From Acidimicrobiia bacterium (GTDB lineage: Bacteria > Actinomycetota > Acidimicrobiia > Acidimicrobiales > Bin134): a stretch of 64,000 bases of DNA. Numbering within the stretch: position 1 is the first letter of the stretch; each line of letters starts with the position of its first letter. A program made the position numbers and the translations under genes. Shown here piece after piece: positions 46,871 through 49,019 of the stretch. The DNA lies in the NCBI GenBank assembly GCA_022822905.1, contig JAJDYE010000004.1, positions 1-64,000 of the forward strand, in the 5' to 3' direction. The notes beneath the pieces were generated by a model. The model searched no databases. It was not told the DNA's origin and saw only the letters and a list, made by a program, of their open reading frames with translations.

Positions 46871-46894
46871 ATCTCCCACGCTAGAATCCAAATG

Positions 46895-46965
46895 GCCGAG
46901 GGCAGTAGCCCGAGGAAGTGGAGCCCGGTACCTCTCCGGACGGTGAGTGGCCGGGCTCTTGCGCG
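46895..46965 (+). ncRNA. Unclassified structured element, copy 1
   Basis: A 71-nt unit beginning GCCGAGGGCAGTAGCCCGAG. It can form a GGGC-AGUA-GCCC hairpin (46900-46911) and a long stem GAGCCCGG/CCGGGCTC (46921-46928 with 46951-46958) around a shared inner loop. TAGAAT at 46882-46887 ends exactly 7 nt before it, as a -10 would. A near copy lies at 47918-47986 on the same strand, on the far side of the metallophosphoesterase gene. I know no Rfam family that it matches. Confidence 0.5.
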
Positions 46966-47086
46966 CCAAGGCCGCCTGCGGACTAGCGGAAGCCCGAGAA
47001 CGCCAGAAGGCCCTCCTGAGTCCATAAACCATCGCCTGCTTCGGACGTCGGGCTGGTACGAATGGGAGTGAGCTGGAGGAGTTGAA

Positions 47087-47899
47087 ATGACTGCCCATGT
47101 CCTGCCCTGCCCCAAGTCGCCGCGGGTTGCTTTGGTTGGCGACACGCATGCCAACTCAGTTTGGACAAGGCGCGTCATCGAGGAGTTGGCGGCTGATGGG
47201 GTGGACATGGTTGTCCAGCTTGGGGATTTTGGGTGGTGGCCGCAGACGGGATTCGCCAAGAAGATCTCCAAGGCTGCGACCGTTGCTGGAATCACGGTCT
47301 GCTTCATCGACGGGAACCACGAGGACCATGAGCACCTCCGCTTCCACGCCCGGCTCCGCAATCCCGGCGGCAGACCAACCGATCCGGTGGAGATGTACCC
47401 CAGCCTGTGGTATCTGCCCCGGGGCTGCTCGTGGGAGTGGCATGGAGTTCGGTTCCGGGCGCTCGGCGGAGGGTTCAGCATCGACCATGCAGTCCGCACG
47501 CCGGGCCAAGACTGGTTCCCCATCGAGGAAGTGCCCTCGATAACCGAGGCCGAGCGAGCCATCGCCGGCGGACCCGCCGACGTGCTACTGAGCCACGATT
47601 TTCCCGCACTCGGCTACCTCCTGAGCGGCCGGGCCATCCCCGAGGCCGATGAGCGGGCCTCCCGACAGGTGCAACACCTGCTGGCCAAGGTGGTCGAGGC
47701 CACCGAGCCCAAGCTCGTGGTACACGGCCACTGGCACTACCCATACGACATCGTGCGCCATGGCGTCACCGTCAAAGGCCTTGACTGTGACGGCACCGAC
47801 CAGGCCGTCACCGTGCTCAACCTGGACACCCTCGCTACCGAGGACTGGCGGCTACCTATCAAGCGGCAGGAGGCAAATCGGGTGGAGTTAGCCCGCTAA
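47087..47899 (+). CDS. Calcineurin-like metallophosphoesterase
   Basis: A 270-aa cytoplasmic phosphoesterase with all five metal motifs: GDTHAN, QLGDFGWW, DGNHEDH, LSHDFPALGY and HGHWHYPYD. It lacks extra domains. GGAGGAG precedes the ATG. It is flanked on both sides by copies of a ~70-nt structured element (46895-46965 and 47918-47986). Substrate could be a cyclic nucleotide, nucleotide or nucleic acid; nothing in the sequence decides this. Confidence 0.9.
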   Translation: MTAHVLPCPKSPRVALVGDTHANSVWTRRVIEELAADGVDMVVQLGDFGWWPQTGFAKKISKAATVAGITVCFIDGNHEDHEHLRFHARLRNPGGRPTDPVEMYPSLWYLPRGCSWEWHGVRFRALGGGFSIDHAVRTPGQDWFPIEEVPSITEAERAIAGGPADVLLSHDFPALGYLLSGRAIPEADERASRQVQHLLAKVVEATEPKLVVHGHWHYPYDIVRHGVTVKGLDCDGTDQAVTVLNLDTLATEDWRLPIKRQEANRVELAR

Positions 47900-47917
47900 A
47901 CCACTATCGTTGAGGAC

Positions 47918-47986
47918 GCCGAGGGCAGTAGCCCGAGGAAGTAGGCCCGGCTCCTCTCCGGACGGTGAGCAGCCGGGTTTTGCGCG
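47918..47986 (+). ncRNA. Unclassified structured element, copy 2
   Basis: A 69-nt unit, identical to copy 1 over its first 25 nt and over the inner CCTCTCCGGACGGTGAG. The outer stem differs but still pairs: CCCGGCT (47946-47952) with AGCCGGG (47971-47977), followed by TTTT like an intrinsic terminator. TATCGT (47905-47910) ends 7 nt before it, the same spacing as TAGAAT at copy 1. It starts 18 nt after the metallophosphoesterase stop. Confidence 0.5.
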
Positions 47987-48022: not shown

Positions 48023-48268
48023 TTTGAGCCAGCGACGCCTACCCGCTACTACGGCCGGGTCACCGTCAAGGCCGACCGATGGACAAGGACAGCAGCCGAC
48101 ATCGCCGAAGCCATAGTCAACCAACTCGCTCAAGCCGAAGACGCCAAGGTCTCCGTCACCATCGAAGTAGAGGCCACCGCCGACGACGGCTTCGACGACG
48201 ACGTCCAACGCACCATCACCGAAAACGCCGCCACCTTGAAGTTCAATGACAGCGACTTCGAGTCCTGA
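48023..48268 (+). pseudogene. C-terminal remnant of a DUF499-type ATPase
   Basis: No start codon is near, but the frame ending at TGA 48268 reads like the C-terminus of DUF499-family ATPases: TRYYGRVTVKADRWTRTAADIAEAIVNQL, VSVTIEVEATADDGFDDD and a final RTITENAATLKF. It runs about 80 codons with strong codon bias and nothing coding in frame upstream past 48000. DUF499 ATPases occur in defence islands beside DUF1156 methyltransferases and DUF3780 proteins. This looks like the last trace of such a system. Homology is from memory of the family pattern. Confidence 0.55.
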
Positions 48269-48344: not shown

Positions 48345-49019
48345 GTGTCATCAGGAGCCATCGCCACCACTTTGCTGGCCGCCGCATTGCTGCCCGGTGC
48401 CTTTTTCCAATGGGGCTTCGAGCGAAATGCAGGGCGTTTTGGAATTGCGCTGAAAGACAGGCTCCTTAGAACTACGGGAATATCAGCCATATTCCTTGCC
48501 TTGTTTGCATGGCCAATCCACAGATTATACGCAAATTATTGGCCTCAGACAGCTTCCGGGGATCACTTACCAATTGCAATATATTTTGTTCCCATCGTGT
48601 ATCTATCCATTCCCCTGTTTTTGGGATGGCTATGTGGAATTACTCTAAGGATGGATTGGGATTGGGCAAAAGGTATCGCTGGAAAGAGGAGATTTCCCAC
48701 TGCTTGGGATTATGCGTTCAGCGAAATGAAGAGTGGGTGGATTCGCTGCAAACTCAAGTCAGGCGAATGGGTCGGTGGACTATATAGTTCGGTGGACTCA
48801 AGTAGTCACACTACATACGCCAGTGGATATCCAGAGCCTCATGAACTATACCTCTACCCAATTGTAGAAATGGACCAGGAGAGTGGGCTCTTTAGGGTTT
48901 CGGAAGCTGGTGAGGCCGTACCAGGGGTAGGAGGCTTGTTGTTGCGCTGGGAGGAAATTGATATGCTTAGCTTCGTTGCGAACGATTTTCAAAAGGGCTC
49001 TGATGAGAAACAAGGCTGA
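48345..49019 (+). CDS. DUF6338 family membrane protein
   Basis: A 224-aa protein with an N-terminal hydrophobic segment, one or two further membrane helices (IAIYFVPIVYLSIPLFLGWLCG) and a C-terminal cytoplasmic domain: TAWDYAFSEMKSGWIRCKLKSGEWVGGLYSS ... EPHELYLYPIV, the DUF6338 pattern. Function unknown; it often lies in accessory regions. GTG 48345 has AAAGGAG upstream. The gene is clearly richer in A+T than the core genes around it, suggesting recent transfer. Confidence 0.7.
   Translation: MSSGAIATTLLAAALLPGAFFQWGFERNAGRFGIALKDRLLRTTGISAIFLALFAWPIHRLYANYWPQTASGDHLPIAIYFVPIVYLSIPLFLGWLCGITLRMDWDWAKGIAGKRRFPTAWDYAFSEMKSGWIRCKLKSGEWVGGLYSSVDSSSHTTYASGYPEPHELYLYPIVEMDQESGLFRVSEAGEAVPGVGGLLLRWEEIDMLSFVANDFQKGSDEKQG

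Follow-up and report, generated by a model that had tools for sequence, protein, structure and literature searches.

Orphan copies of a DUF3800-associated structured RNA, a putative antidote, in an Acidimicrobiia genome

The structured RNA motifs associated with DUF3800 genes that were described by Weinberg and colleagues reportedly number eleven, DUF3800-I to DUF3800-XI. DUF3800 proteins have an RNase H fold, and their association with candidate noncoding RNAs has been reported (PMC10910872), the motifs being those of Weinberg et al. (2017) as cited in that paper. The literature that we searched contains no statement on the function of these RNAs. In Clostridioides difficile, RCd22, an RNA of the abiF motif, neutralises the AbiF toxin both in cis and in trans (PMC12373285), and a phage RNA mimic, pseudo-ToxI, defeats the protein–RNA defence system ToxIN (PMC3475682).

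Here we analyse an RNA element of ~70 nt that occurs twice in a stretch of 64,000 nucleotides from an Acidimicrobiia bacterium, referred to below as the window. It belongs to a family of structured RNAs that recurrently adjoin DUF3800 genes, and is in this sense a DUF3800-associated RNA. It resembles the catalogued motif DUF3800-IX (RF02968), which is likewise an RNA of ~70 nt convergent with a DUF3800 gene, separated from it by 3–4 nt (loci L118 and L119). However, its sequence is different and it has two consecutive hairpins where DUF3800-IX has a closed three-way junction. Our covariance model of the new family (R1, see below) and the DUF3800-IX model do not match each other. Because the fold differs from that of DUF3800-IX and the two models are mutually blind, we regard the element as a further, uncatalogued family of DUF3800-associated RNA. 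DUF3800-IX itself was found in three actinobacterial genomes; DUF3800-I (RF02969) had no match in 296 genomes and none in the controls, so that its absence carries no information. Neither RF02968 nor RF02969 matched the window's own genome.

The element is also comparable to AbiF/RCd22, where mobile DNA carries a structured small RNA next to the gene for an abortive-infection protein, but the protein (Abi_2/AbiF) and the RNA are unrelated to those described here, and the function has been shown for AbiF whereas here it is inferred. With ToxIN it shares a protein–RNA logic, the existence of phages with a stand-alone RNA, and the occurrence of tandem units at two loci (L035 and L036). In ToxIN, the ToxI repeats form an array at the upstream end of the toxin operon, and ToxN is not known to have an RNase-H fold; in contrast, there is usually only one convergent RNA unit here, with its own predicted promoter. 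The arrangement that defines type III systems, in which antitoxin repeats precede the toxin gene within a single operon, is not seen in the RNA module. As it lacks both this operon layout and the repeat array, and inhibition is only proposed, we do not class the module as a type III toxin–antitoxin system.

The RNA family and its two copies in the window

The relevant features of the window are the following.

46882 to 46887, plus strand: −10-like box TAGAAT of copy 1 (32 of the 55 family copies have TAnnnT at −13)
46895 to 46964, plus strand: RNA copy 1, subtype A, orphan (R1 score 94.3 bits; covariation)
47087 to 47899, plus strand: metallophosphoesterase (MPE) gene (Pfam Metallophos, 5e-11)
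47905 to 47910, plus strand: −10-like box TATCGT of copy 2 (the same family-wide count at −13)
47918 to 47985, plus strand: RNA copy 2, subtype B, orphan (R1 score 88.0 bits)
48035 to 48268, plus strand: 3′ remnant of an HmaC/DUF499 defence ATPase, last 77 amino acids (92.6% DNA identity)
48345 to 49019, plus strand: DUF6338 gene (Pfam DUF6338, 7e-23; tblastn matches to L015, L014 and L029)

A sequence-only reading of the window had pointed out two plus-strand units of ~70 nt beginning at 46895 and 47918, each preceded at 7 nt by a TAnnnT/TATnnT hexamer, and both the units and the hexamers (TAGAAT and TATCGT) are present at these places. Copy 1 consists of hairpin 1 (46896–46915), hairpin 2 (46921–46958) and the 3′ tail UUGCGC; in copy 2 the hairpins occupy 47919–47938 and 47943–47980. 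The GGGC-AGUA-GCCC hairpin and the shared inner stem-loop that had been noted are found in both copies, the former within a helix of eight pairs that includes a tandem G.A. The two copies have in common a 22-nt core, which occurs exactly twice in the window and never in 100 shuffles of it, with up to three mismatches allowed. Folding gives two hairpins with a short linker between them, and energies below those of shuffled sequences (z of −2.8 and −3.3). The terminator-like T run proposed for copy 2 is just TTTT, and is followed by GCGC, which is conserved family-wide; because the run is short and the conserved GCGC follows it, copy 2 does not have a canonical terminator.

We assign the two copies to two different subtypes rather than to a duplicated pair, because copy 2 is closer to the RNAs of other genomes than to copy 1. 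Copy 1 is 100% identical to copies in three genomes (G006, G019 and G020), while the nearest relatives of copy 2 are at loci L052 (97%) and L048 and L029 (94%), compared to ~89% for copy 1; copy 2 is also similar to the second copy of G013. The earlier suggestion of a riboregulator pair is not upheld; the copies are two subtypes and not the product of a duplication around the MPE gene. A third copy is present in the window's own genome (contig C29, 22850–22919; locus L002). Its hairpin 1 has diverged and it lacks a −10 box at the usual offset; it is possibly decaying.

Searches at the DNA level identified relatives in 15 of the 22 genomes of the genus, including the window's own, and in two other families. 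Exact-core scans added copies in Jiangella, in Sva0996 and in viral contigs, and blast added copies in Rhodococcus and Mycobacterium plasmids and in a Gordonia phage. A blast match in Gordonia phage BigShaq (E 0.09) had no model match and was taken as chance. The covariance model R1, built from 29 copies, has 69 positions and 20 pairs, and retrieved homologues from six further genomes in a search of 396 actinobacterial genomes. Across 48 distinct copies there are compensatory changes in 15 of the 20 pairs, with 90.9% of cells paired. None of 500 shuffles came near the observed covariation, and shifting the partner abolished the signal. The 48-copy alignment was fitted to R1; a free MAFFT alignment led to the same conclusion. 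The covariation for which the sequence-only reading had asked is thus strong, and its claim that the outer stem differs between the copies and yet remains paired is borne out, with 15 of the 20 pairs changed on both sides among relatives. Loops AGUA and GGAC are conserved in the family, and the loop letters are invariant across several orders.

The element was correctly described as unclassified in Rfam: the window has no match at the gathering threshold and nothing meaningful at lax thresholds, so that known Rfam families could be rejected, and cmscan of the window and its relatives gave no DUF3800 match up to E values of 3–10. We note that c-di-AMP riboswitches at L106 (578–773) and L110 (8382–8489), on Arthrobacter and Cellulosimicrobium plasmids, are separate elements, which adjoin NlpC/P60 or C40 peptidase genes. 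Two IMG/VR contigs contain two RNA units in tandem (L035, 311–464; L036, 2538–2689), the second being downstream of the first and having a different convergent gene of ~129 amino acids. At L102 (G016, contig C5), three RNA units, one of them truncated, are found within 8 kb, in the company of a pAgo-like gene and of a restriction gene that is type I-like.

In 32 of 55 copies, TAnnnT starts exactly 13 nt upstream of the RNA, compared to an expected 0.6 per offset, a count that is indicative and is given without a p-value because the copies are phylogenetically non-independent. At any other offset it occurs in at most 5 of the 55. Because TAnnnT is fixed at −13, the conserved RNA begins where transcription should start. 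We conclude that the element is an RNA gene, predicted to be independently transcribed from its own promoter. The suggestion that the two units are small RNAs is in good agreement with this, as they are structured, have their own predicted promoter, show selection on structure and have many actinobacterial homologues.

The convergent DUF3800-type gene

Outside the window's genus most copies are convergent (tail-to-tail) with a gene of ~175 codons, as are several of those in the genus itself, with a gap between its stop codon and the 3′ end of the RNA of −1 to 19 nt (26 loci). All six of the further genomes found with R1, one of which (G035) was already in the R1 training set, carry this partner, whole or partial, beside the RNA, as detected by tblastn using the proteins of other genomes. 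A protein profile recovers the same six, together with G313, which has a weaker RNA match beside its gene. In the opposite direction, searches with the partner protein found 60 plasmid records and the phage Gaia. All 12 of the protein-found plasmid and phage loci that were fetched have an R1 match (42–61 bits); 11 are directly convergent, with the RNA 1–19 nt past the stop codon, and in the other one the RNA follows one more gene of the same orientation. In Jiangella muralis, each of the four partner homologues has an adjacent RNA match, two of these being weak. The RNA and the partner co-occur across genomes (Fisher p about 1e-12), and their distances are correlated (Mantel r 0.57; 0 of 5000 permutations), as expected of co-inherited parts. 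It is almost certain that the RNA and the convergent DUF3800-type gene constitute a two-component module. The neighbours at RNA loci include Tmn, pAgo, RmrA/STAND and HmaC-like genes, and so indicate a defence setting.

In subtype A of the Acidimicrobiia, an uncharacterised gene directly adjoins or overlaps the beginning of the DUF3800-like gene (L099, 8513–9454; L102, 5954–6781; L101, 8297–8695), and is possibly a third component. Its L102 copy has no match in Pfam or PADLOC.

The structure of the partner was predicted using AlphaFold, with a pLDDT of 95.3. The best structural neighbours of the model are RNase HII/H2 proteins (1uax: Z 11.7, 140 residues, 2.7 Å); a sequence search of solved structures gave chance matches only. 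Residues D6, E7, R29, H44, R79, H129 and D142 are invariant, D6, E7 and D142 being acidic (A3). The predicted structure places the partner in the RNase H superfamily, with an RNase-HII fold, as a putative nuclease.

The partner group as a whole could not be assigned clearly to any family in Pfam, PHROGs or PADLOC. Most members are individually below the Pfam DUF3800 cut-off, some with weak matches; an Arthrobacter member passes it (23.1, against a cut-off of 21), and PGAP/NCBI names some members DUF3800. An hhalign comparison with a true DUF3800, the partner of DUF3800-IX, aligned over the full length with an E value of 0.0033, and the alignment to the DUF3800 profile includes D-x-S at the start and A-D-x-V-A at the end. 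We regard the partner, on these alignments, as a divergent member of DUF3800.

Orphan RNAs and the surroundings of the window copies

The window's genome contains three RNA copies and, by profile search, no partner gene, and no partner fragments were found in the vicinity of the two window copies. Elsewhere, this genome has two further DUF3800-like genes, of which one is a weak match. The window copies are thus orphan RNAs of two subtypes; a partner may be hidden in draft genomes, and the single-contig genome G007 also has the RNA without the partner. Within the genus, the partner is intact in only four genomes (G001, G010, G011 and G016) and fragmentary in three (G013, G021 and G017), and the remaining RNA-bearing genomes have the RNA only. 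Between orthologous orphans, RNA identity is 94–100%, compared to mostly 67–85% for the upstream flank. This conservation is contrary to the decay expected under a plain antitoxin model, and may reflect a partner-independent role.

Orphans are also found in phages. In Gordonia phages of the genera Leonardvirus and Zitchvirus, the RNA is flanked by a neck/minor capsid gene and by a gene for tail assembly, and the partner is absent from all six of these phage genomes that were searched (Belphegor, Phinally, Zipp, Zitch, Phauci and Tardus). An apparent partner match in Belphegor (L057) was rejected, being out of the gene's frame in a phage that as a whole has no profile match. The RNA of Mycobacterium phage Nebkiss is identical over 121 nt to that of its relative Gaia; Gaia carries both RNA and partner protein, and Nebkiss lacks the protein.

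The MPE gene that separates the two window copies adjoins the RNA only in the window's own genome and in G003. MPE homologues are present in four RNA-negative genomes (G008, G009, G014 and G015), in G007 the MPE homologue and the RNA are ~179 kb apart, and 16 MPE loci that were searched had no credible RNA. On this distribution we reject the MPE as the partner of the RNA, the conserved partner being the DUF3800-type gene; the gene is a bystander outside the RNA system, and the earlier idea that the RNAs are substrates of the phosphoesterase is contradicted. We note that G014 has seven copies or fragments of the MPE family on contig C1 (around 2802401–2810090, 3196983, 3237151 and 505565), several of them broken by stop codons.

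The HmaC remnant that adjoins copy 2 matches the end of an intact gene of 1117 amino acids at L050 (Swt1-like HEPN and DUF499; 1.6e-303 to PADLOC HmaC), which is ~1.3 kb from an orphan RNA. In G005 and G013, too, the RNA has a DUF6338 gene as a neighbour; such a gene is beside it in three lineages (the window, L014, L015 and L029), possibly as part of the same variable island. In G007 the RNA directly precedes an M1 peptidase gene that is the same as that of the window. Overall, we interpret the region as the remains of a defence island, located at a variable site.

Possible role of the RNA

The best overall explanation, to which we give somewhat better than even weight, is that the window copies are orphans of an RNA/DUF3800 module in which the RNA is a putative antidote. 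An RNA of ~70 nt would be transcribed from its own promoter and paired with a convergent gene for a small RNase-HII-fold protein. The protein would be a nuclease toxin or an abortive-infection effector, which the RNA would bind and restrain in a type III-like manner, as in AbiF/RCd22, and stand-alone RNAs in the window's genome and in phages would persist by neutralising incoming or related nucleases. This mechanism, with RNA restraining a DUF3800-type nuclease and orphans acting as antidotes, has in our view about an even chance of being correct. Because the RNA is elsewhere tail-to-tail with a nuclease-like gene, the window copies are probably left-over antidotes.

The RNA could instead be an activating cofactor or scaffold, in a ribonucleoprotein that is the defence effector and in which the RNA presents the protein or guides it to its targets. 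The tight linkage and the conserved AGUA and GGAC loops are consistent with such a role, as is the DUF3800 protein found beside Cas12a2, for which a role in interference or crRNA metabolism has been proposed (PMC10910872). However, the conserved RNA contains no variable guide-like segment, and a guide RNA was rejected for this reason; the 5′ end is a promoter-defined start, and the 3′ flank is the stop region of the partner gene. Orphan RNAs would moreover be useless as cofactors without the protein. A cofactor thus seems rather unlikely, and the antidote role fits better because orphan RNAs exist in hosts and phages.

We consider it unlikely that the RNA acts independently, as a regulatory sRNA that the DUF3800 protein merely processes or degrades. 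The RNA has its own predicted promoter and its orphan copies are conserved, as would be expected of such an sRNA, but, leaving aside those of the genus and of phages, nearly all RNAs are next to the protein, and the two co-diverge. The adjacency and co-divergence imply that the basic role of the RNA is with the protein.

A location between convergent 3′ ends, with a terminal GC hairpin and a short T run, might also suit a bidirectional terminator or DNA-level element ending DUF3800 genes. This is very improbable, given the −10 box at a fixed distance in 32 of 55 copies, the conserved first hairpin, the invariant loop letters and the stand-alone copies that are away from any convergent gene. 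A tie to the MPE, as substrates or a riboregulator pair, is barely credible, since its adjacency is confined to two genomes, MPE homologues are present in genomes that lack the RNA and in other genomes are never close to it, and the RNA has another conserved partner.

The RNA family forms a tight and portable module, with predicted ends and promoter, a confident protein fold, and plasmids and phages as carriers. More tentatively, and at rather less than even weight, the module may represent a new actinobacterial class of defence or toxin–antitoxin system, in which a DUF3800 toxin of RNase-HII fold would be checked by a tail-to-tail RNA of ~70 nt, and which phages of two genera (Leonardvirus and Zitchvirus) and partner-free hosts would have reduced to the RNA, kept as a conserved antidote. 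If so, the unexplained DUF3800 RNA motifs would have a first function. Two natural knock-out contrasts are available, namely Gaia, with nuclease and RNA, against Nebkiss, with the identical RNA only, and the hosts in which the RNA is conserved although the partner is missing. The role of DUF3800 RNAs thereby becomes directly testable in standard laboratory hosts, and the finding points to phage-borne RNA antidotes.
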